A stretch of DNA of 52,004 nucleotides from a virus. The stretch lies in IMG/VR virus record IMGVR_UViG_3300024259_000047, positions 1 through 52,004 of that record, one strand, 5' to 3'. The position numbers were made by a program, and so were the translations under genes. The notes under the pieces are model-generated. The model searched no databases. It had not been told where the DNA came from and worked only from the letters and a program-made list of their open reading frames with translations. This document shows positions 2,997 to 49,639 of this stretch, piece by piece; positions within the stretch are counted from its first letter, which is position 1, and each line of letters opens with the position of its first letter.

Positions 2997-3015
2997 CAAT
3001 AATTTATAAACAATA
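2993..3015 (+). repeat. Direct repeat TAAACAATA x2
   Basis: TAAACAATA occurs at 2993-3001 and again at 3007-3015, 14 bp apart. The first copy overlaps the -35 region of the candidate leftward promoter. It may be an operator or origin iteron. Confidence 0.5.
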
Positions 3016-3032
3016 CCGCAATTATATTTAGC

Positions 3033-3061
3033 AAACGGCGTAAACGTGCCCGAAACGGCGT
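3033..3061 (+). repeat. Direct repeat AAACGGCGT x2
   Basis: AAACGGCGT occurs at 3033-3041 and 3053-3061, exactly 20 bp or about two helical turns apart. That spacing suits two molecules of a DNA-binding protein on one face of the helix. It lies upstream of the rightward promoter. Confidence 0.5.
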
Positions 3062-3112
3062 TTTGCTATCATATACCACACTAAAAAAACTTTGCCTTTT
3101 GCAAAATCTTTC

Positions 3113-3142
3113 TTGCGGGATATTGCGGAATGTGCTTAATAT
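3113..3142 (+). promoter_or_regulatory. Candidate promoter of the first rightward operon
   Basis: TTGCGG (3113-3118) then 18 nt then TAATAT (3137-3142). The predicted start is about 30 nt before the ATG at 3179. The match is moderate, but the region is AT-rich and correctly placed. Confidence 0.45.
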
Positions 3143-3178
3143 ACCCTTGCGAGTTCTGATAATCCCGAAAGGCGCAAC

Positions 3179-3427
3179 ATGGAAAGCAACGTAACTACAA
3201 TCATCACAAGCGGTAAGATCGACGCAGCGCGGATCCTCTCGATGCGGGAGGTGGCGACCCTCCTTGAATGTTCCGTGTCGAAAGTGTTCTTACTCACGAA
3301 GAACAAACAACTTACGCCGATCAAGCGGAGGCCGTATCTCTACGATCTCGCAGATATCCAGCGTTACGCCGGAGCGTGGCAGGTTGGAAAGACCATTCAT
3401 AAGGTACGAAAGGAGCAAGTGTTATGA
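3179..3427 (+). CDS. Excisionase/MerR-type helix-turn-helix protein
   Basis: An 82-residue protein. Residues 20-60 (LSMREVATLLECSVSKVFLL, then PIKRRPYLYDLADIQRY) match the winged helix-turn-helix of the excisionase/AlpA/MerR superfamily: a first helix, a recognition helix, and a wing ending in a hydrophobic helix. It is the first rightward gene, right after the divergent control region, and overlaps the exonuclease start by 4 nt. It probably binds its own control region as a regulator. It resembles the proteins at 6073 and 14020. No integrase is present, so a role in excision is unlikely. Confidence 0.75.
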   Translation: MESNVTTIITSGKIDAARILSMREVATLLECSVSKVFLLTKNKQLTPIKRRPYLYDLADIQRYAGAWQVGKTIHKVRKEQVL

Positions 3428-4485: not shown

Positions 4486-4514
4486 CAAGTCAATCAGAAA
4501 TACGGAGGAAAGAA

Positions 4515-5747: not shown

Positions 5748-5932
5748 GCGAGGAAGTGAAGAAGTGCTCCAATTGTTATCACTACGACGGGTGCGAAGTG
5801 TGGCATCCAGAAACCGGGACTTCTAAATCTGAGAATGTCTCTATCGGTAGCCGTTGCCGATCCTACGAAAACAAAGAGTGGGCAGAAGAGCAGATAACCA
5901 AGGCCACCGAAGGCGGTACTCCGGGGGGCTGA
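5744..5932 (+). CDS. Small cysteine-rich protein (62 aa)
   Basis: Begins with ATGA overlapping the recT stop, so it is coupled to recT. The motif CSNCYHYDGC (residues 8-17) followed by a later cysteine (SRCRSYE) is a compact metal-binding knuckle of a type common in small phage proteins. The tail is glycine-rich. It is the last gene before a strong terminator. Function is unknown. Confidence 0.7.
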   Translation: MSEEVKKCSNCYHYDGCEVWHPETGTSKSENVSIGSRCRSYENKEWAEEQITKATEGGTPGG

Positions 5933-5937
5933 TTGAC

Positions 5938-6000
5938 GGGGACCGGCTGGCGTGCGGGTTGTTGCTCCTTCCCCCGCGTCGGCCGGTCCTTTTTTATTTT
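5938..6000 (+). terminator. Rho-independent terminator after recT unit
   Basis: GGACCGGC (5940-5947) pairs with GCCGGTCC (5982-5989). Inside, GCGGG pairs with CCCGC. The stem is followed at once by TTTTTTATTTT. This is the clearest terminator in the rightward arm and ends the exonuclease-recT unit. Confidence 0.9.
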
Positions 6001-6011
6001 CTCAATAGATG

Positions 6012-6040
6012 TTGACAAGTCAGTATAGCTTAGGATAAGT
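6012..6040 (+). promoter_or_regulatory. Candidate promoter of the replication unit
   Basis: A perfect TTGACA (6012-6017) follows the terminator directly. The -10 is less clear: GATAAG (6034-6039) with a 16-nt spacer is the best fit. The ATG of the next gene is at 6073. Confidence 0.5.
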
Positions 6041-6048
6041 TACATCCT
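6032..6048 (+). promoter_or_regulatory. Candidate operator AGGAT-N7-ATCCT
   Basis: AGGAT (6032-6036) and ATCCT (6044-6048) form an inverted repeat over the presumed -10. The 9-mer AGGATAAGT at 6032-6040 recurs at 18421-18429, also just downstream of a TTGACA. The excisionase-like protein encoded next (6073) is the obvious candidate ligand. Confidence 0.45.
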
Positions 6049-6072
6049 GAGCAGTAAAAGAAAGGCGAAACG

Positions 6073-6270
6073 ATGGAAACGCTTTTGACGGTCAAAGAGC
6101 TGGCCGAGTACTTTTCAGTATCGGAGGCGGTTGTCCGCAAGTGGGAAAAAGACAAGACAATCCCTGGTATCCACTGCGGGCCGAGAATGCTCCGGTTCCG
6201 CCTTGCGGACGTTATCGCGGCGTTCGAAGATGTGAAAAAAGAACCAGACCAACCCGGAAAAGAAACATGA
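6073..6270 (+). CDS. Excisionase/MerR-type helix-turn-helix protein
   Basis: A 65-residue protein made almost entirely of one winged helix-turn-helix: LLTVKELAEYFSVSEAVVRKW (helices 1-2), then KTIPGIHCGPRMLRFRLADV (wing and last helix). It opens the replication unit behind its own promoter. Its stop overlaps the next start as ATGA. It is likely a transcriptional regulator of this or the divergent operon and is related to the proteins at 3179 and 14020. Confidence 0.8.
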   Translation: METLLTVKELAEYFSVSEAVVRKWEKDKTIPGIHCGPRMLRFRLADVIAAFEDVKKEPDQPGKET

Positions 6271-7175
6271 AACCATCCCCGGCATTCCTCTTCTACTATC
6301 AGGACTTCTTCTCAGATCCGGATGTTTTGCCGATGTCCAAATCCCAACAGCGGGATTATCTTTTCCTCCTCGGGGTACAATGGAACTCGGGCAGCATCCC
6401 GGACGACATTGCTATTATCGCCCGCATGGTAGGATCTTCTGTCGAGGATATGGAAAGCGATTGGCGGTGGATAGGGCGCTGTTTCGAACCGGGTGAAGGA
6501 AAAGGAACTCTCCAGAACGCAAGAATGAAAGCTGACCGCGATTCATACCTTGAATTGAAAGCAACGCGGATAGCAGCAGGAAGGCAAGGAGGGAAGCAAA
6601 ACGCCAAACGGATACAAGCAAAACGAAAGCAAACCGAAAGCAAACCAGTAGCAATCGCTATAGCAAACGGGGAAGCAAAAGAGAACCTTCCTTCTTCTTC
6701 TTCTTTGTCTTCTCCTAAGTCTTCTTCTTCTCCTTCTCCTTTGTCTGTTTCTTGTGAAGAGGAAGATACATTTCAGCCGGGAGCTGAAACGGACAATTCC
6801 CCCCCCAAGCCTCCCGATTGCCCCCATCAAAAGATAATCGATCTCTACCACGAGATCCTGCCGGAGCTTCCCCGCGTCCGGTCGTGGCGCGGAACAGTCC
6901 GAACGAATCTCGCAACCCGGTGGAAGGAAGATTCTGCCCGGCAGACCGTCGCGTGGTGGGAGGACTTCTTCATCAACCAAGTTAAAAACTCAAGTTACCT
7001 CACAGGCCAAGTGAACAGCTTCCACACCAACCTCGGATGGCTCGTTGGCCCGAAGAACTTCGAAAAGGTTATGAACGGGCAGTACGTCGACCACGGGCCA
7101 TCCACGGGGAGCGCCCGGACGGACCGGAACGCGGCGGCGTGTAAGCAGTTTATGGAAGAGATGGAGAATGAATGA
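6267..7175 (+). CDS. DUF1376/YdaU-like replication protein
   Basis: A 302-residue protein starting at the ATGA overlap at 6267. The N-terminal 90 residues (PAFLFYYQDFFSDPDVL, QQRDYLFLLGVQWNSGSIPDD) match the DUF1376/YdaU domain seen at the start of many phage replication initiators. A basic stretch and a serine/proline low-complexity linker follow (about residues 140-180). The C-terminal domain (KIIDLYHEILPELPRVR, RWKEDSARQTVAWWEDFF, SSYLTGQV) is the fold that often follows in O-like initiators. It probably opens or marks the phage origin for helicase loading. The likely loader is encoded at 7913. Confidence 0.75.
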   Translation: MKPSPAFLFYYQDFFSDPDVLPMSKSQQRDYLFLLGVQWNSGSIPDDIAIIARMVGSSVEDMESDWRWIGRCFEPGEGKGTLQNARMKADRDSYLELKATRIAAGRQGGKQNAKRIQAKRKQTESKPVAIAIANGEAKENLPSSSSLSSPKSSSSPSPLSVSCEEEDTFQPGAETDNSPPKPPDCPHQKIIDLYHEILPELPRVRSWRGTVRTNLATRWKEDSARQTVAWWEDFFINQVKNSSYLTGQVNSFHTNLGWLVGPKNFEKVMNGQYVDHGPSTGSARTDRNAAACKQFMEEMENE

Positions 7176-18966: not shown

Positions 18967-19455
18967 ATGGCGAATGACCTTGATATCGTGTGGAGCACCG
19001 AACAACGCAAGATTTCCGACCTTGTACCATATCCGAATAACCCGCGACGGCTGACGGAAAAACAAAAGACCGACCTACAGAAGTCTATCGAGCGGTTCAA
19101 CCTTGCCGAGATCCCCGCGATTAATGTCGATGGGACGATTCTCGCAGGGCACCAGCGGTTGAAGATCCTGGCGTCCCTCGGGCGCGGCGAAGAGACGATT
19201 GATGTTCGGGTGCCGAGCCGCGTTCTGACCCCTACCGAGATGCAGGAATACAACATCCGATCCAACCAGAACACCGGCGAGTGGGATTTCGATCTCCTGG
19301 CCGATGAATTCGGCCACGATGATTTGATCGAGTGGGGCTTTGAGGAAGGGGAGATTCTACGGCCTGATTTCGACCCGATAGAGGAAGAACCCCCGCGTCT
19401 CGACCAGAAGAAACCGACAGTTTGCCCGGAATGTGGCCATGAGTGGACAGAATAA
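18967..19455 (+). CDS. ParB/Srx-fold nuclease-like protein
   Basis: A 162-residue protein with the ParB N-terminal fold: DLVPYPNNPRRLTEKQ, then LAEIPAINVDGTILAGHQRLKIL (the G-H-Q-R motif) and MQEYNIRSNQNTGEWDFDLL. In phages this fold usually sits next to a methyltransferase or packaging genes and may act in DNA modification or packaging site choice. It ends with a CPECGHEW half-ribbon. The next gene (Mom-like) overlaps its end, so the two probably work together. Confidence 0.85.
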   Translation: MANDLDIVWSTEQRKISDLVPYPNNPRRLTEKQKTDLQKSIERFNLAEIPAINVDGTILAGHQRLKILASLGRGEETIDVRVPSRVLTPTEMQEYNIRSNQNTGEWDFDLLADEFGHDDLIEWGFEEGEILRPDFDPIEEEPPRLDQKKPTVCPECGHEWTE

Positions 19456-20158
19456 ACCGAAGTTACATCTTGCTTGGTGCTCGCACAAAGCAGCGAAATA
19501 TGCCGTTGAACACTGGCACTATTCGAAGAGGATGCCATCAACAGCAGGGCGGGCTGTATATATTGGAGTGTGGGAAGACGGAAAGTATGTAGGGTCAATT
19601 GTTTTTAGCCTTGGTGCAAATTTGAATTTAGGGAAAAGGTATGGGTTGAGGCAGTTTGAAAGGTGTGAGTTGGTGAGGGTAGCTCTAAGGGAGCACAAGA
19701 ATACAGTAACGAAGATCGTTTCTGTTGCACTGAAGATTTTAAAGAAGCACTCTCCAGGACTAAAGGCTGTTTTTTCTTATGCTGACATGGGGCAGGGACA
19801 CGTCGGGGTTATATATCAAGCAGGGAATTGGAGCTATATAGGGATAAGTCCTGGCACCTATGAATATATCAGGAATGGTGAAATCTTGCACTCCAGAACG
19901 GCATCAGATAGATATGGCTCATTAAAGGGAATGAGAGAGCGGGGGTTCACAAAACAAAAGAAAGCGAATAAGCACCTTTATGTTAGTGTCTTTGATAGGT
20001 CTATATATAGCAGATTTACAAAGCATGTTTTACCATACCCAAAGCGCGGCGAAAGTGACACGAGTGACACGCCGGGGCACCACCCCGGAAAGGGCGGTTC
20101 AACTCCGACCTCGCCGCTCCATTCTAAAGAGCTGACCAATGCCAAAAAAGAATCCTAA
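19439..20158 (+). CDS. mom: Mom-like DNA modification protein
   Basis: ATG 19439 overlaps the ParB-like gene; GTG 19433 in the same frame is possible. The protein has the GNAT-like pattern of Mu Mom: HYSKRMPS, RAVYIGVWEDGKYVGSIVF, RQFERCELVRVALREHKN, KAVFSYADMGQGHVGVIYQAGNW. Mom adds a methylcarbamoyl group to adenine and protects phage DNA from restriction. The gene is markedly AT-rich: by count 25 of 60 bases are G or C at 19561-19620, against 42 of 60 at 20161-20220. This suggests recent transfer. The last 40 residues are probably not conserved. Confidence 0.75.
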   Translation: MSGQNKPKLHLAWCSHKAAKYAVEHWHYSKRMPSTAGRAVYIGVWEDGKYVGSIVFSLGANLNLGKRYGLRQFERCELVRVALREHKNTVTKIVSVALKILKKHSPGLKAVFSYADMGQGHVGVIYQAGNWSYIGISPGTYEYIRNGEILHSRTASDRYGSLKGMRERGFTKQKKANKHLYVSVFDRSIYSRFTKHVLPYPKRGESDTSDTPGHHPGKGGSTPTSPLHSKELTNAKKES

Positions 20159-30405: not shown

Positions 30406-30594
30406 ATGCTCCCTTTTGAAAAGGACAAAAACGGAATGGTCCTGATTCACAACCGCATCACAGGCGAAGAGAAGCTGGTGTATCCTGTCGACGCAAGGGA
30501 GATAATCCTAAAAGCGAACGTAGAAGATCCGAAAAAAATACTCTTCAATATCTACGCTCTCGGACCAGCGCCGAACAAATCGGAGGGTAACTAA
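30406..30594 (+). CDS. Small hypothetical protein (62 aa), paralogue of 29968
   Basis: Starts at ATG 30406 after AGGAGC. Shares the N-terminal domain of the protein at 29968: F-x-K-x-x-N-G-x-V and the Y/F-P-V-D-A-x-E-I motif. It lacks the charged tail. The ATG of the next gene overlaps its TAA. Confidence 0.65.
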   Translation: MLPFEKDKNGMVLIHNRITGEEKLVYPVDAREIILKANVEDPKKILFNIYALGPAPNKSEGN

Positions 30595-31118
30595 TGGCTC
30601 TTGTAGTCGAGGACGGCACCGGCAAAACAGACGCGGAATCCTACATCTCGGAAGTCGACGCAGATACCTACTTTACCGCCCACGGTGACTCGACCGACTG
30701 GAGCGGAGCAACAACCGCCGAAAAGGAAGAGGCGCTCCGTGTCGGGACTCAGTACCTCGACCTGGTCTACGGGCAGAGGTGGGTAGGATACAAGACAGCG
30801 AAGGCCAACGCTCTCGGGTGGCCGCGCTACGTCTCCGAATCGAACCGCACCGGGTACTACTGGGAATCCGACGAAGTGCCGATACCGCTCGAACAGGCGA
30901 CGTGCGAAGCGGCTCTCCGGCATATCACGGAAACCGACGGGCTCCTGCCGGACATCACGAAGCCGGGAACGATTGTGACCACGAAATCGAAGGTGGGCCC
31001 GATTGTTAAAGAGACGACTTACACGTCAACAGGGCAATCACAGATTCCGACGTTTAGAATCATCACGCTGATGTTAGCCGACCTTATCGGGCCGCGTCAT
31101 CAGCTGGAAAGAGCATAG
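30594..31118 (+). CDS. Head-tail connector, DnaT-like (174 aa)
   Basis: Contains the connector pattern DAESYISEVDADTYF, EEALRVGTQYLDLVYGQRWVGYKT and LGWPRYVSESNRTGYYWES, followed by a helix and the strands of the adaptor fold. This is the small adaptor that binds below the portal (the DnaT-like family of head-tail adaptors). The stop of the gene before it overlaps its start. Confidence 0.75.
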   Translation: MALVVEDGTGKTDAESYISEVDADTYFTAHGDSTDWSGATTAEKEEALRVGTQYLDLVYGQRWVGYKTAKANALGWPRYVSESNRTGYYWESDEVPIPLEQATCEAALRHITETDGLLPDITKPGTIVTTKSKVGPIVKETTYTSTGQSQIPTFRIITLMLADLIGPRHQLERA

Positions 31119-31140: not shown

Positions 31141-31509
31141 ATGACCGATAACAAAGACGGCCTCTCCCGATTCAGCTACATGGTCGACCGCGTTGGATTC
31201 CCCGGAACGCTCTTGATAATGATCTGCGTCGGGTTGTATTTCGGGGCTGTTCAACCTCTTGTTGCCGTCGCTTCCGAGCATGTCAGTGCTCAGACCAGCC
31301 TGCTCGCAGAATCAACCAAGAAGCTCAACTCTGTACTGACCGTCGTCGAGGCTGATAAAGCGGAGCGCAAGTCCGAAAAGCTATCCTCGATCGAGGCGAT
31401 GCTTGAAAGGCATGACCAGGAGATGATTCAGCAGATGGAGAGGCAAACAGTGATTCTTGAAAAGCTGAGTGATATTATCGAGGATCAAGCGAGGAAGGAC
31501 GGGCGTTAA
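31141..31509 (+). CDS. Membrane protein with coiled coil (122 aa)
   Basis: One hydrophobic segment at residues 20-45 (GTLLIMICVGLYFGAVQPLVAV) followed by a long coiled coil (KKLNSVLTVVEADKAE, MLERHDQEMIQQMERQ). It sits among the connector genes rather than in a lysis cluster. Possible roles are holin, superinfection or envelope anchoring. A holin is the best guess, but there is no supporting neighbour. Confidence 0.55.
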   Translation: MTDNKDGLSRFSYMVDRVGFPGTLLIMICVGLYFGAVQPLVAVASEHVSAQTSLLAESTKKLNSVLTVVEADKAERKSEKLSSIEAMLERHDQEMIQQMERQTVILEKLSDIIEDQARKDGR

Positions 31510-31511
31510 TT

Positions 31512-32078
31512 ATGTTTAAAAACACAGCCTCGCAAAAGGTTGCTGTCTATGCCTATGACTCAACAACCGGACTTCCGATCACCGGCGATGCGGCCAATAT
31601 CACGGCGCGAATATCCCTTGACGGCGCGGCGGTCGCACAATCGGACGACGTGAATCCTACGGAGCTTGATGCCACCTATGCGGAGGGAGTGTACGTCTTT
31701 GATTTGACTCAGGCTGAAACGAATTGTGACCTTTTCGTTCTGTCGGCGGAATCGTCCACGGCGAACATCATTTGCGCTCCTATCACCGTTTACACGACCA
31801 TCGGCGTCCCTGGTATTCCGAAAGGCGTGGAGCTGATCTTCTCTGCCTCGATGGTCAACGCGGACGATGAACTCCAGATCGGAAAAACGGTTGTTGCTCA
31901 GATTTCGAAAGAGGGCGGGGCATTTACGACATTGACCACGGCAGTAACGGAAACCCCGGCGGCATCATCTCAGTACAAAGTCACGGCGACGGCTACCGAA
32001 ATGAACTGCGACTGGGGACAGATCCGACTTACGAATAGTTCCTGCAAAACGAAAACCTTTGATTTCAGGACAAGCTGA
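31512..32078 (+). CDS. Beta-rich structural protein (188 aa)
   Basis: Two beta-sandwich-like segments (VAVYAYDSTTGLPITG, VYVFDLTQAETNCDLFVLSAES, and later TKTFDFRTS) with scattered cysteines. The pattern resembles Ig-like or head-decoration domains found between connector genes. It starts 2 nt after the previous stop. Function is not certain. Confidence 0.55.
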   Translation: MFKNTASQKVAVYAYDSTTGLPITGDAANITARISLDGAAVAQSDDVNPTELDATYAEGVYVFDLTQAETNCDLFVLSAESSTANIICAPITVYTTIGVPGIPKGVELIFSASMVNADDELQIGKTVVAQISKEGGAFTTLTTAVTETPAASSQYKVTATATEMNCDWGQIRLTNSSCKTKTFDFRTS

Positions 32079-32081
32079 TAG

Positions 32082-32549
32082 ATGGCAATTTCCCCTCCGA
32101 TACCGACGCCTGAAGTCTCCGCGATGTTGTGGAACTCGACAGGGAATAATCCCCCTGGTGTCGGGCGCGTGTGGATCGAGACGGATTATAATCCGAACGT
32201 GCCGGTTGTCCATTCAGAGCTTGCAATCGAGGTCTACGATCTGATCCAGGAATACGGAAAGATCGTGACCTTCCGCACGGAGGACTTCGGGACTTACGAC
32301 CCGTCGACGGCGAGCGTTTCGGCTGTCGTCGCGGAAGAGTTGAGCTGGAAAATAACACCGCCGTACCCGGTAACACACGGGCACAACTACGGCAAAATGG
32401 AATGCTACGTGTCCCCGATCTACGACGGGCCTGTCCCTGTGCCGGGAATGAAAGTCGAGATCGATAGCATTTGGTGGACGGTGACGGCGACGGACCAGAT
32501 TAGAGAATCGGGCGCTGCGGCGCTTTATCATATCATCATGGAGAATTGA
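32082..32549 (+). CDS. Head-closure-like neck protein (155 aa)
   Basis: The C-terminal half (ELAIEVYDLIQEYGKIVTFR, PVPGMKVEIDSIWWTVTAT) matches the head-closure pattern with a G-x-K-V and a barrel-like end. The same domain recurs at the C-terminus of the hydrolase fusion at 33277 (ELVPEVYTLIDELGEAVIF, PAPGIKMTLESKDYTVIKV). It would plug the portal channel after packaging. The N-terminal 40 residues are proline-rich. Confidence 0.65.
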   Translation: MAISPPIPTPEVSAMLWNSTGNNPPGVGRVWIETDYNPNVPVVHSELAIEVYDLIQEYGKIVTFRTEDFGTYDPSTASVSAVVAEELSWKITPPYPVTHGHNYGKMECYVSPIYDGPVPVPGMKVEIDSIWWTVTATDQIRESGAAALYHIIMEN

Positions 32550-32552
32550 TCG

Positions 32553-33275
32553 ATGAGCGGATGCAGAGACTTGAAGGCAGATACGGCGATAGTGGTCCCG
32601 GTGGGTCCGTTCAAGGACAAGACGGACAAGGTGACGCCGGAAACGGGGATCGTCATCGGGGATATCACGTCCGGCGCGAGGATCATGAAAGAGGACGGGA
32701 CGAACGCCGCGTTTACTCCTTCTTCATGGGCGCACTACGCGGGCGGGATGTACTCCTGCGGGCTCTCGACCGATCACACCGACACAAAAGGAAAGCTCCG
32801 GCTTTACTTTGCGGACTTCGGCGTCTACGTTCCCTTCCCGGAAGACTTCATGATATCGAAGGCCAACGAGTGGGATTCCTGCTACGGGGCGGAAACGAAG
32901 AACGCGAATATCGTTTCCCACTTCGGAGTTGCCACGACTGCCGACGAATGGAAACAGCAAAAACAGGCGCTCGGTGTCGGTCTGACTTCCGGGTGGGTTG
33001 CGCCCGAGGGGAGCGGGATTCTCGGCATCGTCGCTGGGATGCTTGGTTACGATTCGGTTCGGGACGACTTCGACTATGACGACAGCACAGGCAAGGTTGT
33101 CGAGACGTTCAAGGTCTATCGGTACGACACTCACGCGCACGCTCTCGCTCATGCGCTTGTTGCCGGGCAGACGCCACCGGCGGGGGCGCAGACCGGATGC
33201 GTGGCGATTATCTCGATGGTAGCAACACACTCTTCGGTTAACCTGACAAGTCTCTCCGGCGCGAGGACAACGTAA
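32553..33275 (+). CDS. Hypothetical neck or virion protein (240 aa)
   Basis: Starts at ATG 32553. The first half resembles small neck-type domains (SGARIMKEDGTNAAFTPSSWAHYAGGMYSCGL, KLRLYFADFGVYVPFP); the second is helical and glycine-rich (GSGILGIVAGMLGYDSV, HAHALAHALVAGQTPPAG). No definite family. The location between two neck proteins makes a virion role likely. Confidence 0.5.
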   Translation: MSGCRDLKADTAIVVPVGPFKDKTDKVTPETGIVIGDITSGARIMKEDGTNAAFTPSSWAHYAGGMYSCGLSTDHTDTKGKLRLYFADFGVYVPFPEDFMISKANEWDSCYGAETKNANIVSHFGVATTADEWKQQKQALGVGLTSGWVAPEGSGILGIVAGMLGYDSVRDDFDYDDSTGKVVETFKVYRYDTHAHALAHALVAGQTPPAGAQTGCVAIISMVATHSSVNLTSLSGARTT

Positions 33276-33276
33276 C

Positions 33277-34620
33277 ATGACGGCAGAGCCAGACGTTGCC
33301 AACATCTACTATGGGCACCCCGGCATAATGGGGGCGGCTATTGCCACTAACGGCATGGTTACTCATCCGTGGTCGGGGGCTCGCGAGGCGGGACAATCCG
33401 CCGCGACGATGGGCGCGTGGTCGGTTGACGGGAAGCACTTCTGCGATCTTTACCTGCCGGACGCCGCGACGGAAGACGGCCCGGTGCCGCTCATCATTTA
33501 CACCCACGGGCGCGATTCCGACAAGCGACACAAACTGATTGATAAGGGCGACGGGCGCGGGCTGATCTTTCCTGAAGGTAGCGCGGTAAACCAACGGATC
33601 TATTTCATCCCGTACCTGACTCGGTTCGGGTACGCGGTGCTATCCTTCAACTATCTCCAGTGTAACGATCTTTTCGAGCAGGACCAGATTGACCCGCCGA
33701 CAGAGCCGGGGGGATGGGATGATCTCTGGATTGAACTCTGGCGCAATCGTGCGTTGCAGGGACAGAGGATGGTCGACTTCGCAATCGATGATTTCGATCT
33801 CTCCGACCATACCGCGAAATGGACGGTTGACCCGGACGCTATTTTCTGGTGTGGGTCCTCGATGGGCTGCTCGATGATGTTGCACACGATGGTTGCCACA
33901 GGACCAGGGAAACCTATCACGCTCCCAGCCTTCGCGAACAAGGCTAACCTTGCCGGTGTTATTCACCAATGGGGGAGCCTTCCTGATGTGGCGGGTGGCG
34001 GCGGTATTTATATGACGTTCAATGAGGACGATCCGTTCTTCGACGTAGGCGATAAACCTATCCTCATCGAGCACGGGACGCACGACAACCTCCAAACCGA
34101 AAGCGGCATGTTGTTGACGCCGTGGACGGCGGCGGTTGCTCTCTACCGTGACGCCCTGAATGTGGAAATCCCCTTCACGGAAATCATCCCACTAATGCAA
34201 GCGCACCATTCCCCGTGGGCATCGCATCACAGCGAGATAGCCTATGGGATGCGCGACTGGATTGCTCGCGTCATGGCGGGAGAGTCAACTCCCGTTATTC
34301 AGACGGAGCTTGATAAAGAGCTGGTGCCGGAAGTCTACACTCTTATCGATGAACTCGGTGAGGCGGTTATTTTTGAGGTGGCGGACGGGTTGCTTTATTC
34401 CCTCAAGATAACCCCGCCGGAGCCGTTCCAAGATTCCTTTATCGACAACGACGTGATTCGGGAAGGCGACTTGACGACCTACGTTGCCGCGAAGGATATC
34501 CCATTCACCCCGGCGCCCGGTATCAAGATGACGCTCGAATCGAAGGACTACACGGTGATCAAGGTTTCTCCGATTTACACGGGCGAGCTGATCGCCCTTT
34601 ACACGTTGCATCTGAGGTAA
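33277..34620 (+). CDS. Alpha/beta hydrolase fused to a head-closure domain (447 aa)
   Basis: Residues 60-330 form an alpha/beta hydrolase: oxyanion-hole HG (77-78) in YTHGRD, nucleophile elbow GSSMG (193-197, Ser195), Asp270 in GTHDN, and a candidate catalytic His in AHHS/SHHS (310-318). A PHB-depolymerase or esterase type is likely, substrate unknown. Residues 345-447 are a second copy of the head-closure domain seen at 32082. Fusion of an enzyme to a neck protein is unusual, and the enzyme may be carried in the virion. It ends 4 nt before the next gene. Confidence 0.7.
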   Translation: MTAEPDVANIYYGHPGIMGAAIATNGMVTHPWSGAREAGQSAATMGAWSVDGKHFCDLYLPDAATEDGPVPLIIYTHGRDSDKRHKLIDKGDGRGLIFPEGSAVNQRIYFIPYLTRFGYAVLSFNYLQCNDLFEQDQIDPPTEPGGWDDLWIELWRNRALQGQRMVDFAIDDFDLSDHTAKWTVDPDAIFWCGSSMGCSMMLHTMVATGPGKPITLPAFANKANLAGVIHQWGSLPDVAGGGGIYMTFNEDDPFFDVGDKPILIEHGTHDNLQTESGMLLTPWTAAVALYRDALNVEIPFTEIIPLMQAHHSPWASHHSEIAYGMRDWIARVMAGESTPVIQTELDKELVPEVYTLIDELGEAVIFEVADGLLYSLKITPPEPFQDSFIDNDVIREGDLTTYVAAKDIPFTPAPGIKMTLESKDYTVIKVSPIYTGELIALYTLHLR

Positions 34621-34624
34621 GGCG

Positions 34625-35089
34625 ATGGCAGTTGCGGCACGAACAATGGACGCGGGAGTTCAACGCTTCATCAAGGAAGTGAGGGACACCGCTCGTCACC
34701 TGCCGAAAAAGCACCTCGTGCCGTTCATCAAGAAAATCACGTTCGAATGCCTGATCCGCATCGTCAACAGAACGCCGGTTGACAAAGGCCGCGCCCGTGG
34801 AAACTGGCAAGTAACTATCGGTTCCCCTGCAACTGGGACCGTGCCAGATACCGACATCGAGAGTGGCAGGGCCCCGACAGGCGGAAGAAGCTCGACCGTC
34901 GAAAAAGGGCTTGCCGCCGTTTCCAACGTCGGGCCGTTCGACTCGGTTTTCATTCATAACAACGTCTCATATATCGAGGTGCTGGAAAACGGGCGGCACT
35001 CGACGGGGCGACAGTTGCGCGGATCGATGCAAGCGCCTCACGGGATGGTCAAAGTTTCGCTCGCAGAGATGGAGCAACAGTTTAAATAA
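34625..35089 (+). CDS. HK97 gp10-like tail component (154 aa)
   Basis: Helical N-terminus (GVQRFIKEVRDTARHLPKKH, IKKITFECLIRIVNRTPVDKGRARGNWQVT) followed by a beta part with FDSVFIHNNVSYIEVLENG. The R-x-P-V-D-x-G-x-x-R-x-x-W signature is the HK97 gp10 pattern. It acts as a neck or tail-completion adaptor between head and tail. It ends at the start of the next gene (1-nt overlap). Confidence 0.8.
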   Translation: MAVAARTMDAGVQRFIKEVRDTARHLPKKHLVPFIKKITFECLIRIVNRTPVDKGRARGNWQVTIGSPATGTVPDTDIESGRAPTGGRSSTVEKGLAAVSNVGPFDSVFIHNNVSYIEVLENGRHSTGRQLRGSMQAPHGMVKVSLAEMEQQFK

Positions 35090-35517
35090 TGGCCGCAATA
35101 ACACACGAAGACGTTGCCGACGCTATCCGCTCTACGTTCGAAACGGAGATCGAGATAGCCGAGACGGTCTATGTCCAGTACGACAATGAGCCGGACAAGT
35201 TTACCGATAGCCTTCTCGCACAAGGTGGCGGCGTCTGGATAGAGCACTCGATTCTCTGGGGCGAGAGCATCAAGGTCGAGAATCCCGGAACATGGCGGCA
35301 CGTTGGCGTGATGCAATGCAAAATCTATAGCGAGGTGGACAAGGGCACGGCAGCGGGCCTCGCGATGTACGAAAAGATAAAAGACGCTTTTAGGAAAACG
35401 ACCGTGGACGGTGTGACATTCACTACCCCTTCTCTGACGCAGGTTGGCCGGTCGGGCAAGTGGTGGGTTTTGATCGCCGATACTCCCTTTCATGCGAACG
35501 ACGTAACGACTGGATAA
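35089..35517 (+). CDS. Tail terminator-like protein (142 aa, DUF4128-like)
   Basis: The order (helix DVADAIRSTFETEI, strands VYVQYDN, then KWWVLIADTPFH) fits the DUF4128/tail terminator family, which caps the tail tube. It precedes the tube gene in the usual order. No special motif. Confidence 0.7.
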   Translation: MAAITHEDVADAIRSTFETEIEIAETVYVQYDNEPDKFTDSLLAQGGGVWIEHSILWGESIKVENPGTWRHVGVMQCKIYSEVDKGTAAGLAMYEKIKDAFRKTTVDGVTFTTPSLTQVGRSGKWWVLIADTPFHANDVTTG

Positions 35518-35548
35518 CTGATCTACGTAGATTAAAGGAGATTTACTT

Positions 35549-36769
35549 ATGAGCAATAGTGATCAAGTTGCTCTGCTCTTTGACGAGGAATCCACTTTCG
35601 GGACGGCCTCGGTAGGAGCATATCAGTACCTCCGCTTTACGAATGAGTCCCTTGAATACGAGACGGAAACGGTCGAGAGCGCGGAAATCCGCAACGACCG
35701 AAATACTCCGGACGTTATCAGGGTGGCCGTTCGTGCTGTCGGAGACATCAACTTCGAATTGTCCTACGGGACGTATGACGAGTTCTTTCGAGCCGGGCTT
35801 TTCAGCGGCGCGTGGTCCACGCCCGGCGCAACGCAGACTTCCACAACCGGCGACCTTGCTATCAGCGCGGTTGCCAGTACGTACACATCCGCGTCGGACT
35901 GCGACTTTACCGAGTTCACCGTCAACCAGTGGATTTTCGTTTCCGATCCCAGCTCGATCATGACAGCCGGAAACCGGGGATTTAAGAAGGTCAATACGGT
36001 GCTTGCGCTTGTGTTGACCGTGGACAGCCCCACGACGATGACGACCGAAAGCCCCACGGGCGGATCGGTTCTTTTCAAAGACGGGTCGCAGATTGTGAAC
36101 GGCACGACCAACACGAATAACTTCTTCACGATTGAGAAGTGGTTTTCCGAACTCGGGAACGGGCTCATCTCCGACGGTATCTTCGAACGGTTTACCGGGA
36201 TGAAAGTTTCCGGCTTTACCCTCGATGTTAACGAAAAGTCCGTCATCACGGGCGCGTTTTCGTTCCTCGGCCAGAAGGGATTGCCCCTCACGGCTACCGC
36301 GTCCGCTTCTCAGACGGCGGTTACCACGACCGACATCATGAACGTCGTGGACAACATTCACGCCGTTTTTGAGGGCAAGCACGACGACACCACGCCGTTC
36401 GCGTCTTATGACGCTTCGGCATTCAGCGTGAGCGTTGACAACAATCTCCGTGAACGGAACCAGCTCGGCGAGTTGTACTTGCAGGCTATCGGGAGCGGAA
36501 AGTTCAAGATCGAAGGTTCTATCACGGCTCACTTCGCAGATTCGACGGTCCGCACGAAATACGCGGCATCGACGCCAACGGCGCTTGTCGTGGTGTTTGT
36601 GGACACCGACGCGAACGCCTACCTCATCGACTTCCCGAATATCAAGTACACTGCCTGCCGTTCCGTGGCCGGTGGTCAGAACTCTTACGTGATGCAGGAG
36701 TGTCCCTTCATCGCGTACATGGATCCTGACGAAGAAATCGCGATGCGCATTGTGAAATGGGCCGCGTAA
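35549..36769 (+). CDS. Major tail (tube) protein (406 aa)
   Basis: Starts behind AAAGGAGATT. The beta-rich, repeated Thr/Ser/Gly composition (FGTASVGAYQYLRFTNESL, LRERNQLGELYLQ, RIVKWAA end) and position before the chaperones identify the tube protein. At 406 residues it is larger than a minimal tube subunit of about 250. An Ig-like insertion around residues 90-150 is likely. Confidence 0.8.
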   Translation: MSNSDQVALLFDEESTFGTASVGAYQYLRFTNESLEYETETVESAEIRNDRNTPDVIRVAVRAVGDINFELSYGTYDEFFRAGLFSGAWSTPGATQTSTTGDLAISAVASTYTSASDCDFTEFTVNQWIFVSDPSSIMTAGNRGFKKVNTVLALVLTVDSPTTMTTESPTGGSVLFKDGSQIVNGTTNTNNFFTIEKWFSELGNGLISDGIFERFTGMKVSGFTLDVNEKSVITGAFSFLGQKGLPLTATASASQTAVTTTDIMNVVDNIHAVFEGKHDDTTPFASYDASAFSVSVDNNLRERNQLGELYLQAIGSGKFKIEGSITAHFADSTVRTKYAASTPTALVVVFVDTDANAYLIDFPNIKYTACRSVAGGQNSYVMQECPFIAYMDPDEEIAMRIVKWAA

Positions 36770-36810
36770 CTTACTGACCTTTTAACGCTTTCAATTGGAG
36801 GAAAGAAAAC

Positions 36811-37233
36811 ATGGGTGCTCTCAGAAACCTCGCGACAGATGTAGACAAGGAAGTCAACGGCATTCCCCTCATCTATCCGGAGACGGATATTGAATTCACC
36901 ATTGCGAGAGACACGAATCCCGCGTTTATCGCGGAGGTTCGTAAACTCACAAAGCCGCATCTGAAAAAGTACCGTGCCGACATCGCCTACGTGATGCTGG
37001 TTCGTGACGGGACGATGGACAAAATCAATCAGAAGGCAGCGGCGAAGCATCTCGTGAAAGGGTGGAAAAACCTTCAGGATGAATCCGGCGCGGAGATCGA
37101 GTACAGCCACGAAAAGGCACTCGAAATCCTCTCTGCTCAGGAGTATGCCGACGTGTTCCGGTGGGTGATGATTGCCGCGAACGACCAGAGCGCATATGCC
37201 CTCGAATTGAAAGCCGACTCAGCAAAAAACTGA
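36811..37233 (+). CDS. Tail assembly chaperone G (140 aa)
   Basis: Starts behind GGAGGAAAG. The sequence is helical (EVRKLTKPHLKKYRADIAYVMLV) and acidic, and ends at a TGA directly after the slippery sequence A-AAA-AAC (37224-37230). Ribosomes that slip back one nucleotide make the GT fusion. G-type chaperones coat the tape measure before tube polymerisation. Confidence 0.85.
   Translation: MGALRNLATDVDKEVNGIPLIYPETDIEFTIARDTNPAFIAEVRKLTKPHLKKYRADIAYVMLVRDGTMDKINQKAAAKHLVKGWKNLQDESGAEIEYSHEKALEILSAQEYADVFRWVMIAANDQSAYALELKADSAKN
37224..37230 (+). promoter_or_regulatory. Programmed -1 frameshift site A-AAA-AAC
   Basis: The heptamer A AAA AAC is in register with the G frame (GCA AAA AAC TGA). 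The codons shift to AAA AAA and continue as CTG AGA GAA, giving L-R-E of the T frame. A partly paired TGAG/CTCA lies just after. This is the expected G/GT switch. Confidence 0.85.
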
Positions 37234-37637
37234 GAGAATGCCTCAAGTGGGAATTAGCTTGGGGCAAGATGAAACCGTTCTTTGAAGCATGGGCCTCTCG
37301 GGGTCGAGAGAAAAAGGAGTGGCGGGAACGTCCGCTCCTCTACCCCGACTTAAAACCGATATGGGAAGCGTTCGAATGGCTGAGCATGAAACGCAATTTT
37401 GAACCAATGTCGGGCATTCCGCTCCCCATATCGGACTTTGAAATAATGACGTATCTCGACCTGTTCGGCTACACCGATCCGGAGGAAAGGCAGGAGGTGG
37501 CCGAGTTAGTTACGGCGATGGACTTAGCCTATCGGGCGCACGTCGCGGAAGAGAAGGAAGAGAAAGAGAAGGCAGGAAAGAATGGCAACTCTCCCGGTAC
37601 ACATCAACGCGGCAGGGGCGAAACGCGGCGCGGCTGA
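37230..37637 (+). CDS. Tail assembly chaperone T extension (expressed as GT)
   Basis: The T frame has no start of its own at the frameshift. It is read after -1 slipping from the G gene, giving a GT product of about 275 residues (140 plus 135). It holds KWELAWGKMKPFFEAW, LKPIWEAFEWLSM and a Lys/Glu-rich end. The tape measure gene starts inside it (55-nt overlap). Confidence 0.8.
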   Translation: MRECLKWELAWGKMKPFFEAWASRGREKKEWRERPLLYPDLKPIWEAFEWLSMKRNFEPMSGIPLPISDFEIMTYLDLFGYTDPEERQEVAELVTAMDLAYRAHVAEEKEEKEKAGKNGNSPGTHQRGRGETRRG

Positions 37638-40518
37638 GTTCAACGCGGCTACGCGAAAGATGGAGCGCTCCGCGAAAGGCGCTGGGCGCGTCGTCAGTCA
37701 GATTTTCGTCGGCTTAGGGGCAGCGGCAGCCGTGCGCGATATGATTCGCGTGACGGCTAAATTTGAGCAGTCTATGAGCACGCTCCGCTCTGTCACCGGG
37801 TCGACAGGTGCGGAAATGGACGCGCTGATATCCAAGGCGCGCGAACTCGGTGCGACGACGCGGTATTCTGCTTCGGAAGCGACGGACGCGCTGGTGTTCC
37901 TGGCTCGCGCTGGGTTCACGGCGGAAGAATCGCTTGCGGCGGTTGGATCGACTCTCGATATTGCCACGGTCGGAATGCTCAGTCTCGGGCAGGCGGCGGA
38001 TTATGCGTCGAACATCGTCAAGCAGTTTAACCTCATTGCCGAAGATACGGGCCGCGTCGGCGATATCCTCGTCACCACATCGAACGCATCGAATACGAAT
38101 ATCCAGCAGTTGGCCGAAGCCATGAAGATGGCCGGGCCGATTGCGGGCGCTCTCGGGAAATCGATCGAGGAAACGGCGGCGTCTGTCGGCGTGCTCGGCG
38201 ATTCGGGTATCCAGGCCACGATGGCAGGAACGAACCTTCGCGGAGTTTTCGCGGCACTCCTCGGACCTACGGACGCTGGGAAAGCGGCGTTCAAAAGAAT
38301 GGGTGTCGCTCTCGACGATGTCAATCCCGCGTCTCGGGACTTGGTTGATATCTTCCGTGCTCTCCGTGACGGCGGGATGGAGGCGGCGGACGCTCTCGAC
38401 ATCTTCGGGCGCAGGAACGCGGCGGCGGCGCTGATCCTTGCGCGGTCTGCGGAACGGGTCGATGAACTCACTGAAGCGAATGAGCGGAGCGCAGGAGCCG
38501 CCCGCGAAGCCGCGAAGATCATGGAGGACAATCTTGCCGGGGCGTTCAAGACGTTGCGCTCCACTATCGAGGAAGTCTATCTCAAGATGGGGGACAGAGG
38601 ATTAACCGGGTCGCTTCGGTCTCTTGTTGACACCGGGACGGCCGCAACAAGGATTCTTTTTGACATGGCATCGGCAGAAGAAAAAGCGAGCGGCGGGGCG
38701 CAAGCTCTCGCGGTAGCAATGAAGGCGGTCGGATTCGGTGCTCTTGCGCTTTCAGCTCAGGCCCTCGGGAATTCGCTCAAATATATCGGCGTCGTTCTCA
38801 AGGCTCACCCCATTTTCATCGTTGCCGGTGTCGTCGCGTCGGCAGGGATTGCTATGTACCAGTTCGCCGGGTCGATGACCTTTGCAGAACAACGGATGGT
38901 TCAGTTCAAGGACGAGGTTGCCGACACTATCGACCAGATGAAGGGGCTTTCCGACGCGGCGCGTGGGTTCGAGCACGCGGTCAAAACGCAGAACGCGGAG
39001 AAGGCTCTTCGGAAACTCAATCAGCAGTTATCGAACCTCGACCAGCTTTCGGAAACGATCTTCGGGGAAGCGCAGAAAGGCAAAGTGCTCTTTGAGGATA
39101 TCGAGCAGTTCCTCGGTATCTCCGGTATCTCTGAAGCCGATGTGAAAGGCGCAATCAAGCCGGTCCTCGATGCCGCTGTTGACGCGATGGCGCTGAAGTT
39201 CGGCGACAAAGAAATCTGGAGCGGTCAACAGGTTTGGTCTTCGATCCTTGATGAGCAGGAGCTGTTTGGCGTTCTCGACAAAGGAAGGAACGCTATCGAA
39301 AGGTGGATCGAGGAAAGAAAGAGAACGCCGGAAGGGGCAGGGTCGCTCTTGTTAACTGGCGCGGACGGTGGGTTTGGCGAAGCCGTGACGCTCACGCCGG
39401 GAAATGTCGAGTCGTTGAAGCGGGTTCTTTATGATGCCCTGAGTGTCGAGCGCGTCCCTGAAAAGGTTATCAACGATCTGATCGAGGAATACCGACAGGC
39501 GATCAAGACAAAGAAAGACAAGTGGAGCGTCCCCGACCTCAAGGAGAGCGTTGAAGACGCGGACCTGATACAGGCCAAGATCGACCGGATTGCCGAGACG
39601 ATGGGAAAGGCCGCCACCGGACCTGTGAACTCCTTCGCCGAAAAGATGGGGCAGGCGTCGGAGAACTTCCTTAGCTTCATGGGTGGCCTTGTTGAAGAAA
39701 AGGACATGTCGAAACTGAGTGCCATGGAAGAACATGTCGCCAGGATTCGAAAGGAAGCGGAGAAATTGGCGCGGCTTGCCGGGTTGTCTGGCATGGCGGT
39801 TGATATCGCGGGCGGCGTCGCCGGGGGACTTGCGGAGCAGTCGTGGATAAGTAGGCATCCGGAGAAGGGTGCAGATCTGGGCGGTGGATTGCCGCGCGCG
39901 AGAACAAGTTTCGACGATCTTCAGGATGCGGCGAATAGTTTATCCAGCGCTTTCGACGGGGCTGCTATTTCTCTGAGGCTTGCCGAGGGAGTCGGGCGGT
40001 CATTCGGTGACGCAACTTACCGCCTGTTTACCGATATGGAATCGACAGGGACGCAGAAGTTTCAGTCCTTCCTGCAAAGCCTCTACAATACGATGATCGA
40101 GACCATGATAGCGACTCCGATTGAGAACGCGATGAAATCTCTCATGGCTCGGATGCTGGCAGCTATGTATTCATCGAGTATCGCGAGTGCTGCTTCTCCT
40201 GCAATTGCCAGCGCCTCCGGCAACGTGTTCTCCGGAAGCGGTAACCTGGTGCCGTTCGCGGGCGGTGGTACGGTCTCAAGCGGGCCTTCGACGTTTGGTA
40301 TGGGCGACGGGCGGCGGGGCCTCTGGGGCGAAGCAGGGCCGGAGCTGGGCTTCTTCCCTCTCAAACGGAATCGGGGAAAACTCGGCATCACAGCGGACGG
40401 AGGGGGCGGCGGAAACACGACGACCTATCAGATATCGATCAACACAAAAGACGCCGATTCGTTCCGCCGTTCAAAACGACAAATCAAACATCAAATAATG
40501 GACATGACAAGACGATGA
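37582..40518 (+). CDS. Tape measure protein (978 aa)
   Basis: The N-terminal 200 residues (MIRVTAKFEQSMSTLRSVTG, KARELGATTRYSASEATDAL, GDSGIQATMAGTNLRGVF) match the tail tape measure family. A hydrophobic segment near residue 390-440 (SLKYIGVVLKAHPIFIVAGVVASAG) and long coiled regions follow, and the end is Gly/Ser-rich. Its length sets the tail length; at about 1.5 angstrom per residue the tail would be near 147 nm. It overlaps the T frame and the DUF2460 gene. Confidence 0.85.
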   Translation: MATLPVHINAAGAKRGAAEFNAATRKMERSAKGAGRVVSQIFVGLGAAAAVRDMIRVTAKFEQSMSTLRSVTGSTGAEMDALISKARELGATTRYSASEATDALVFLARAGFTAEESLAAVGSTLDIATVGMLSLGQAADYASNIVKQFNLIAEDTGRVGDILVTTSNASNTNIQQLAEAMKMAGPIAGALGKSIEETAASVGVLGDSGIQATMAGTNLRGVFAALLGPTDAGKAAFKRMGVALDDVNPASRDLVDIFRALRDGGMEAADALDIFGRRNAAAALILARSAERVDELTEANERSAGAAREAAKIMEDNLAGAFKTLRSTIEEVYLKMGDRGLTGSLRSLVDTGTAATRILFDMASAEEKASGGAQALAVAMKAVGFGALALSAQALGNSLKYIGVVLKAHPIFIVAGVVASAGIAMYQFAGSMTFAEQRMVQFKDEVADTIDQMKGLSDAARGFEHAVKTQNAEKALRKLNQQLSNLDQLSETIFGEAQKGKVLFEDIEQFLGISGISEADVKGAIKPVLDAAVDAMALKFGDKEIWSGQQVWSSILDEQELFGVLDKGRNAIERWIEERKRTPEGAGSLLLTGADGGFGEAVTLTPGNVESLKRVLYDALSVERVPEKVINDLIEEYRQAIKTKKDKWSVPDLKESVEDADLIQAKIDRIAETMGKAATGPVNSFAEKMGQASENFLSFMGGLVEEKDMSKLSAMEEHVARIRKEAEKLARLAGLSGMAVDIAGGVAGGLAEQSWISRHPEKGADLGGGLPRARTSFDDLQDAANSLSSAFDGAAISLRLAEGVGRSFGDATYRLFTDMESTGTQKFQSFLQSLYNTMIETMIATPIENAMKSLMARMLAAMYSSSIASAASPAIASASGNVFSGSGNLVPFAGGGTVSSGPSTFGMGDGRRGLWGEAGPELGFFPLKRNRGKLGITADGGGGGNTTTYQISINTKDADSFRRSKRQIKHQIMDMTRR

Positions 40519-47646: not shown

Positions 47647-48075
47647 TTATTCATCCTCGTCTCTCTGGAAATCGATATTGCACTTCATCAGCCAGCTACA
47701 CTTCAGGGACTTCTCAACAGTATCCGCGAAAGCTGTAGCGATTGACCTTTGCCGCGTCGGCTTCTTGAGTTCCTTCATGACGGCGGCTTTCACTTTCTCG
47801 GTATTCGTGGTGAGCCACTCTTCGAGTGCCGCCTGCGTGGCCTTTCTGATTGCCTTGCCTGTCAAAGCCTCGATGAAGTCGTACTTGTTGTAGTATTTAT
47901 CACTGCCGATCTCCCCTTCCTCGTTGACCTTCTGTTTCAAAGCCAACTCCACCAGCTTCCCGATAACGAGTTCAGGGTCACCGAGGCTTGCCGTGATTGC
48001 GGCGGAAATCTTTTTTTCAAGGATCGGCTTGACGAGATCGTCGTTGATTTCGAGATTTACCATTCCTTCAGCCAT
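47647..48075 (-). CDS. Hypothetical protein (142 aa)
   Basis: Starts behind AAGGAGATG. A helical, acidic protein (EINDDLVKPILEKKISAAI, ALKQKVNEEGEIGSDKYYNKYDFIEALTGKAIRKATQAALEEW). It lies directly downstream of the ATPase gene and may be its partner. No known motif. The C-terminus has two cysteines. Confidence 0.65.
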   Translation of the reverse strand: MAEGMVNLEINDDLVKPILEKKISAAITASLGDPELVIGKLVELALKQKVNEEGEIGSDKYYNKYDFIEALTGKAIRKATQAALEEWLTTNTEKVKAAVMKELKKPTRQRSIATAFADTVEKSLKCSWLMKCNIDFQRDEDE

Positions 48076-48105
48076 TGTTCATCTCCTTATTTGTTTGAAA
48101 GAAAA

Positions 48106-49320
48106 CTACTCCCGTTCCTCGATCATCCCGTCCTCGATGATGATCTGGCATTCGTCGCCCTTGCCTACGCGTTCGAGCCAAACCTGTCCGCCTTTCTCTT
48201 CTGCGAGGTTCGCCAGCAGGATCAGATTTTCATCATCAATCAAGCTGCCGTCGCGGACAAGGAGAATCTTGAGCTTCGGATTCATGGCGAATCCCATCGC
48301 CACGCCGATCTCGATTTCCTCCGCGCCGCTTGCCTGGTCGAGCGGGAGCCCGTTGAAAAGCACCTGCTCCGAATCGAAAGAGAGGCCCGGCACGGGGGCA
48401 TCAGCGGCGGCCATGGCCTCGGCCTTCTCGGTGTCGATTTCCTTGATGGCAACGGTCTGCGCGTCCGCTGCGGCTTCGAAATCTTCCGCCGTTTTCAGGA
48501 ACGTCATCGCGGCGACATTCGTCCGCGCTTCGGCGTTCGCTTCTTCCGCGTTGGCGATGGAGTCGAGGAGCGTGGTTACGTCGTGAGGCTGGTTGCCATT
48601 GAGGAAAGTTTCGGCCTGTTCTGCTTTTGCCTCTTCCTTCAGTCGTTCCGCCTGCAACTCAGCGATTTCATCGTCGATTTCCGACATCCGATTTTGAGCG
48701 AGAGTCAGAGTATTGCCGACACTCGATATTCGATGGTTCTTTTTCCGCTTCTCTTCCAGTTCCTTCGACAGTGCGACAACCGAGACCTCTTCCGTCGTCG
48801 CGTCGGGATCATACGGGCGCTCATCGTGTTTGACGCGCGCCTCTTTCGCGCTCCGGTTGCTATCCGTCCGGGCGTCGTAGGTCACCTGCCGTTTCCTGTC
48901 GAGATCCGTGAAGTCGAGCCCGACGACAGCCTTAAACGTCTCGAGCTGTTCGTGCCGGTCCATCCGGAAGAACTCCAGCGGGTCGAAGGACAACGGACCG
49001 ACCAGCCCTTTCAGCGTCGTCTGATTGTGCTTCCCGCCGTCCTTGCCCTTGACGACAAGTTTCTCCTTGCCGTCCGGGTACAGTTCGAGGTTGACGGTCA
49101 GCTCTTCGAGGTCGAGGAATATTTCCCCTTTCTCTGCCCCTTCGTGAACCGGCGTATCGCACCGATTCCGCTTCCCGCCGAGGGCGAATTTCACACAGTC
49201 AAGCGTGCTCGATTTGCCTTGTTTGTTCTTCCCTCCGACGATGATCAGGTTCCCTTCCGGCTTGAACGCCACATCTGTCAGGCGCTTGATATTGATCGCT
49301 TTGAAATCAACGATTTTCAT
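48106..49320 (-). CDS. Rad50/RecF-like ATPase (404 aa)
   Basis: Starts behind GAGAGGAAAG. Residues 1-120 hold the head-domain half with Walker A GGKNKQGKSS (29-38). A coiled coil runs from about 165 to 290. The second half has a signature-like ASGAEE and Walker B-like KILLVRDGSLIDDE. This is the AAA_23-type phage ATPase, which acts on DNA ends or as a recombination mediator. No nuclease partner is beside it; its coil lacks an obvious zinc hook. Expression starts in the leftward early operon. Confidence 0.8.
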   Translation of the reverse strand: MKIVDFKAINIKRLTDVAFKPEGNLIIVGGKNKQGKSSTLDCVKFALGGKRNRCDTPVHEGAEKGEIFLDLEELTVNLELYPDGKEKLVVKGKDGGKHNQTTLKGLVGPLSFDPLEFFRMDRHEQLETFKAVVGLDFTDLDRKRQVTYDARTDSNRSAKEARVKHDERPYDPDATTEEVSVVALSKELEEKRKKNHRISSVGNTLTLAQNRMSEIDDEIAELQAERLKEEAKAEQAETFLNGNQPHDVTTLLDSIANAEEANAEARTNVAAMTFLKTAEDFEAAADAQTVAIKEIDTEKAEAMAAADAPVPGLSFDSEQVLFNGLPLDQASGAEEIEIGVAMGFAMNPKLKILLVRDGSLIDDENLILLANLAEEKGGQVWLERVGKGDECQIIIEDGMIEERE

Positions 49321-49345
49321 GTTCTTTCCTCTCTTGAATATCCTG

Positions 49346-49639
49346 TTAATAGGTGATGATTTCGTTCAGTCTCTCGATAAGCTCTTTGATTGATAGGTGC
49401 CAGGAGATTCGCAAGGAAGGGTCTTCATGTCGTTTCTCCTCACCCTCTCCGTCATCAACGCCGTAGCACCCTGCAATTTCACATCCTGCGAGAGCGAACA
49501 ATCCGGTAACCTCGATATAATCGTAAGAGCCAGTTACCCAGTGCGTTTCTTTGATCTTATCATTAAGCCACCGCCATACGTCGTCGTGGTATTGGCTGTG
49601 CCCGTTAATGACAAAAGCAATTGTAACCTTATCGGCCAT
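49346..49639 (-). CDS. Hypothetical protein (97 aa)
   Basis: ATG 49639 is preceded by AAGGGGCAG; the open frame upstream is only a shadow of the neighbouring gene. The protein is mixed alpha/beta with aromatic residues (HDDVWRWLNDKIKETHWVTGSYDYIEV), followed by a CEIAGCYG pair. Not recognised. Confidence 0.6.
   Translation of the reverse strand: MADKVTIAFVINGHSQYHDDVWRWLNDKIKETHWVTGSYDYIEVTGLFALAGCEIAGCYGVDDGEGEEKRHEDPSLRISWHLSIKELIERLNEIITY

Follow-up and report, generated by a model that had tools for sequence, protein, structure and literature searches.

The stretch of DNA analysed here (the window) comprises 52,004 bases, the virus record IMGVR_UViG_3300024259_000047, which belongs to a bacterial virus represented by environmental DNA only. 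It encodes a complete type-1 neck (Ad1, Ne1, Tc1 and tail tube) on the plus strand, with the major capsid protein upstream and a tape measure of 978 aa downstream. The left border of a variable interval is formed by the head-tail adaptor Ad1 (30594..31118, 174 aa; phrog_477, 6e-39; Pfam DnaT_2, 2.1e-35). It is followed by a 122-aa protein (31141..31509), which by eye contains a hydrophobic stretch and is helical in its C-terminal part, with only sub-threshold NCBIfam matches and no relative among the ORFs of the collected loci, and by a 188-aa candidate appendage part (31512..32078), which judged by eye probably consists of two Ig-like beta-sandwich repeats (weak match to phrog_21332, 0.0049). 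Next come a 155-aa copy of the head-closure protein Hc1 (32082..32549; phrog_161, 1.8e-4), which has an N-terminal lead of about 45 residues and lacks the loop after the PP motif, and a 240-aa protein (32553..33275) without a PHROGs family, whose N-terminal half is probably Ig-like. The latter is weakly similar (E 0.00097) to a 198-aa protein that adjoins the neck genes of the relative L023. After the 447-aa ORF at 33277-34620, the subject of this analysis, the operon continues with Ne1 (34625..35089, 154 aa; phrog_169, 2.3e-29), the tail terminator Tc1 (35089..35517, 142 aa; phrog_179, 1.2e-16) and the tail tube protein (35549..36769, 406 aa; Pfam Phage_tube_2, 3.6e-37). The order Ad1 ... Hc1-Ne1-Tc1-tube is found in many relatives, and the 447-aa ORF occupies the Hc1 position between adaptor and Ne1/terminator, with the extra genes inserted after Ad1. 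Elsewhere, the window encodes a Mom-like DNA modification protein, probably for anti-restriction (19433-20158; phrog_1384, 1.3e-49), and a 535-aa ORF near the tail fibre genes without a Pfam or PHROGs family (47749-49356).

The first-pass annotation had described the product of this ORF as a hydrolase fused to a head-closure domain. Our sequence analysis confirmed this architecture, with a predicted alpha/beta-hydrolase-type domain (residues ~1-338; 33277..34290) and a near-complete Hc1 (stopper) domain (~343-447; 34303..34617), based on a single open frame from ATG (33277) to TAA (34620), a phrog_161 match, a hydrolase profile and motifs in place. A near-identical contig (IMGVR_UViG_3300024243_000309, L002) spans window positions 34058-39519. 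As its three differences all fall within 36942-36960, the two records are identical across the junction (~34290-34303) and show no stop there; the frameshift or missing stop that would separate two genes was not found. The first 260 codons of the fusion (33277-34057) are present in the window contig only. Genes around the fusion are tightly spaced (32549/32553, 33275/33277 and 34620/34625), and GC3 is alike in both halves (0.692 vs 0.70). By eye, no ribosome site is evident ahead of the in-frame ATG at 34273, so there is no obvious separate Hc1 product. The fusion is real, rare and located within a real neck operon.

For the C-terminal half, residues 382-447 match phrog_161 ("head closure Hc1") with an E-value of 2.1e-6 in PHROGs, and a family profile of 15 rows (A14), rather than the window sequence alone, matches the solved "Stopper protein gp12" (PDB 10lj_A, 1.2e-7). 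The domain opens with the N-terminal helix motif TELDKELVPEVYTLI. Comparison with a phage that has a separate gene, as earlier proposed, showed similarity to the stand-alone Hc1 (121 aa) of phage MW202657 extending from residue 1 of the latter, with 37.8% identity by tblastn and 42% in the multiple alignment. Since the similarity begins at the first residues, a near-complete Hc1 rather than a fragment was joined. A hairpin of 15 columns (33-47) that normal Hc1 possesses is missing from the fused copy, which therefore does not have the full set of Hc1 loops, a usual but not strictly defining feature (6/118 lack one). The previous description of residues 345-447 as a repeat of the head-closure domain at 32082 holds for the motifs E-L-x-x-E-V-Y-x-L-I and P-x-P-G-x-K, common to both copies, while the start lies nearer to residue 343 and the hairpin is missing.

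The N-terminal half carries the ordered HG, GxSxG, Asp and His motifs of the alpha/beta hydrolase superfamily. These elements, already noticed on first inspection, were located at His77-Gly78 (33505..33510; oxyanion-type HG, aligned with the HG of 13 actinobacterial relatives), Ser195 in GSSMG (193-197; proposed nucleophile, 33859..33861, invariant column), Asp270 in HGTHD (266-270; proposed catalytic acid, 34084..34086, invariant column) and His310-His311 (34204..34209), one of which is the proposed catalytic histidine. The histidine aligns with that of the relatives in one alignment and is the least certain motif, because two alignments place this stretch differently. The relatives were reached via a plasmid tblastn match to a Streptomyces protein annotated as an alpha/beta hydrolase (E 3e-3); a contig scan seeded with the fusion and the Streptomyces pair yielded 14 remote actinobacterial loci (L095-L108). 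A profile of these 14 hydrolases, built without phage sequence, matched just one of 360 window ORFs, namely the fusion (residues 177-277, i-E 1e-8), at 33.6 bits compared with 7.5 for the best of 5000 shuffles. A mixed-alignment profile, four-fifths actinobacterial, matched 298 solved sequences with esterases foremost, and the closest solved relatives to which the remote family led are esterases of the carbohydrate and carboxyl type.

Direct searches were less productive. The hydrolase half did not reach a curated Pfam cut-off (BD-FAE, 15.3 bits vs 26.8), and a PDB search with the single hydrolase sequence gave no match. Searches for phage relatives of this half returned only the twin contig or nothing, with none in the first contig scan; both matches of a phage tblastn with the fusion fall in the Hc1 part; and the hydrolase profile found no match in 11,340 ORFs from 172 sources beyond the window's own copies. 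Sequence comparison placed the enzyme half far from every protein found: it has no phage relative in 172 loci, and its only relatives, actinobacterial esterases, are remote. A single-sequence structure model reached a pLDDT of 32.5, and AlphaFold with 14 rows reached 45.1, with strands and helices in their usual order over residues 43-206. Each of the 50 PDB matches listed by Foldseek for the low-confidence model is, judging from its title or known family, an alpha/beta hydrolase (best E 1.2e-4, TM ~0.26), and the best matches in the viral library were lipases and esterases (E 1e-3); with esterases making up 13 of the 14 alignment rows, this result is in part circular. The predicted enzyme fold is well supported by motifs but not by structure.

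To place the fusion among its relatives, we used loci collected with a tail tube scan (80/118 kept), a portal scan (3) and an adaptor scan (80 of at least 529), plus individually added phage records. Across 125 Ad1-Hc1 pairs, near-copies included, the median gap between the Ad1 stop and the Hc1 domain was 30 nt, and 15 non-window pairs exceeded 150 nt. The corresponding window gaps are 1114 nt to the Hc1 at 32082 and 3278 nt to the fused Hc1; this 3.3-kb gap holds the second Hc1 and beta-rich genes. The loci contain 118 distinct Hc1 sequences, including the two window copies, with a median of 10 residues before the Hc1 domain. Besides the fusion, three of the 116 distinct non-window sequences have at least 100 extra N-terminal residues (L114, L040 and L053, with L041 duplicating L040). 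No family could be assigned to the N-termini of L040 and L053, and Pfam is silent on L040. In L114, whose Ad1 is 51% identical to that of the window, the gap of 2271 nt comprises a 423-aa protein (lectin-like by eye, no Pfam match), a 91-aa protein (sub-threshold MG2) and a protein whose C-terminal half is Hc1 (phrog_161, 3.5e-16) and follows an fn3-like domain (Pfam fn3 0.0093, below cut-off). This domain is joined at the same Hc1 helix as in the fusion (RTETELDEELIPEV vs IQTELDKELVPEV).

Further intervals are filled in other ways. In the L116 contig, the gap of roughly 7.8 kb accommodates a beta-helix protein of 553 aa (9.1e-7), a repeat protein of 1340 aa and smaller genes, ahead of a 153-aa Hc1 and Ne1; as appendage-like genes here accompany a nearly plain Hc1, attachment need not use an Hc1 fusion in this case. 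A Laminin_G_3 protein (6.1e-8) follows Ad1 in L122 and long proteins follow it in L119 and L124; these three intervals are not closed, since the fragments hold no Hc1. The gap of L050 (2264 nt) contains a 506-aa repeat protein, and the remaining intervals contain ordinary-looking small genes. The interval is accordingly variable, with surface-type proteins in a subset of the loci.

Several candidates were discarded during this comparison. An 857-aa "fusion" in L090 represents a GC-rich out-of-frame lead ahead of a normal Hc1 ATG; the long Hc1 leads of L115 and L168 run across part of the Ad1 gene and were left out of the count; tandem Hc1 copies in L040/L041/L053 were not supported by a direct profile test (E 0.077 and 0.36); and recoding at an odd ending common to L116, L119 and L122 was rejected, as it is merely the next gene starting after the stop. 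We also recorded proteins of about 275 aa at Hc1 loci, whose N-terminal half has no assigned family (L040:2132-2968, L041:7121-7957 and L053:7200-8033, with L070:6089-6916 similar by eye), a 1340-aa protein with many repeats like RTLADSLGLTDS between Ad1 and Hc1 in L190 (G301:C1:10000-19600, minus strand 2997-7019), and small proteins between Ad1 and Hc1 that appear proteasome/HslV-like by eye (L059:7020-7484, Pfam 0.0068; L184:1054-1497, no Pfam match). Other insertions in the neck region are a GIY-YIG homing endonuclease between Ne1 and Tc1 (L031:5182-6051) and a 911-aa glycosyltransferase between Tc1 and the tail tube (L052:6240-8975). The L114 Hc1 part and the window Ne1 match separate parts (17-119 and 139-240) of the 250 positions of phrog_17193, which accordingly looks like a natural Hc1-Ne1 fusion.

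We consider it somewhat more likely than not that the fusion is a stopper subunit bearing an N-terminal serine alpha/beta hydrolase, which would sit outside the neck as an ester-cleaving accessory enzyme. Tail length amounts to about 1.5 angstrom per tape-measure residue, and 978 aa would place the neck about 150 nm from the tail tip. At this distance, the enzyme would act on layers met by the whole particle, or in detachment, rather than at injection. In phage lambda, the adaptor barrel rests within a ring made up of the N-terminal helices of the six stopper subunits (PMC10721106), and in R4C there is a contact between the stopper N-terminal helix and the adaptor (PMC10276861); a domain preceding this helix should therefore point outwards. 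The stoppers of R4C (PMC10276861), lambda (PMC10721106) and JBD30 are described as hexamers. The Hc1 part would dock as usual between adaptor and tail terminator, and the added hydrolase domain, in up to six copies, would hang outside the neck. Enzyme display on the neck is a natural inference, and the earlier placement of a hydrolase at the head-tail joint is supported by sequence, gene order and related loci, with assembly into the virion presumed. The best reading of the wider family is that the Hc1 N-terminus may anchor an exchangeable neck appendage, here an esterase, as suggested by one clear second fusion (L114) and several filled intervals.

Internal deletions of at least 7 consensus columns occur in 6 of the 118 distinct Hc1 sequences, including both window copies, each of which has lost a different stretch (columns 33-47 for the fusion vs the 10 columns 56-65 for the 32082 protein). 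In the tree, both copies fall into a nine-row set with L003, L114, L011, L115, L139, L167 and L148 (96/79), where they are, weakly, each other's nearest kin (61/0). The different missing loops hint at divided roles. It is possible, at a probability clearly below that of the preferred reading, that the 32082 protein is the working stopper and the fusion an extra subunit, whose Hc1 part is only a plug-in adaptor that would make the hydrolase a sub-stoichiometric neck decoration. The existence of a second copy fits this account, as does the loss of a different loop from each copy, expected if roles are shared; Virfam did not find a second Hc1 in any phage (PMC4362835). However, it is the fusion and not the 32082 protein that adjoins Ne1, and the fusion is closer to stand-alone Hc1 (42% vs 28% identity to MW202657) on a shorter branch (0.59 vs a long 1.61). 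A more elaborate version of the preferred reading is tentative: an exchangeable cassette between Ad1 and stopper would be mounted on the stopper N-terminus, here as a catalytic esterase, and a ring of two reciprocally trimmed Hc1 paralogues would fix the enzyme number.

With regard to activity, ester cleavage on an acylated surface polysaccharide, such as de-acetylation of capsule, LPS or slime, is most likely, the substrate being a guess. The neck-borne hydrolase would then help the particle to move along or leave such layers rather than drill at the tail tip. We regard it as unlikely that the domain is no longer catalytic and serves for carbohydrate binding or spacing, like the lectin-like genes in relatives. 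Neighbouring cassettes do hold binding-type folds (Laminin_G_3, fn3-like, beta helix), and the neck modules of the lactococcal 936 phages are binders (PMC6669499), but the Ser, Asp and His motifs are all retained in the right order and spacing compared with active-type relatives. Still less probable is an enzyme acting within the host before assembly, for example on a storage polyester or lipid, with the fusion merely tying its production to late expression. No signal peptide was seen by eye, in agreement with this idea, yet a free enzyme would have no need of a stopper, and surface-type proteins occupy the interval in relatives. The polyester (PHB) substrate suggested in the first-pass annotation is not supported: its only hint, also cited for action within the host, is the PHA-depolymerase model NF050058, at 13 bits far below the cut-off of 150 and about as weak as the BD-FAE match. 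Finally, an assembly chimera, or a damaged genome in which two genes became joined by chance, is mostly refuted and highly improbable, since the second contig carries the junction, spacing is tight on both sides and GC3 agrees (0.69/0.70), even though the first 260 codons occur in one contig only.

Among known systems, the fusion has in common with Hc1/stoppers (phrog_161; SPP1 gp16, lambda gpFII, R4C and JBD30) its C-terminal 105 residues, the gene order Ad1-Hc1-Ne1-Tc1 and the N-terminal helix motif. Known members are stand-alone proteins of about 115-130 aa, whereas the fusion has a 338-aa enzyme-type domain ahead and a diverged second copy in the genome. The hydrolase half shares its HG, GxSxG, HGxxD and His motifs, at 28-32% identity, with BD-FAE/Abhydrolase_3 esterases of Actinomycetota (L095-L108), the solved 5ao9 and the acetyl xylan esterase 6xyc; these relatives are cellular and not phage-borne, and have no Pfam family in common with the fusion above cut-off. 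Host-sugar-binding neck modules are described for lactococcal 936 phages, where the neck passage structure carries surface-binding modules including beta-helix and esterase-type CBM folds (PMC6669499). That structure is formed by a protein of its own, which has a BppU-like collar domain, whereas the module of the fusion is built into the stopper and looks catalytic. Searches of Pfam, PHROGs and NCBIfam gave no family match of the fusion to a BppU-like collar domain plus coiled-coil fibre; its anchor is Hc1. The T4 whiskers, A-1(L) gp80-82 and Milano gp13 likewise place an appendage at the neck, as proposed here, but are described in the accessible text as separate proteins of other neck types, with no enzyme on the stopper (PMC10966104, PMC10491603). 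Among the open-licence PMC articles searched, no enzyme fused to a stopper was found.

What is new here is the setting, an expanded Ad1-Hc1 interval in which relatives carry other predicted appendage domains, neither point having been noticed in the first-pass annotation. Phage enzymes are known from tail tips, spikes and fibres. If the proposed reading is true, a hydrolase on the DNA-retaining plug would mean that the neck, too, can bear such tools and may be where exchangeable surface tools are mounted. The fusion would offer a simple test system in which the N-terminal domain of a small ring protein can be exchanged, and if the two trimmed Hc1 copies share one ring, they would illustrate cleanly how a ring subunit divides its roles after duplication.
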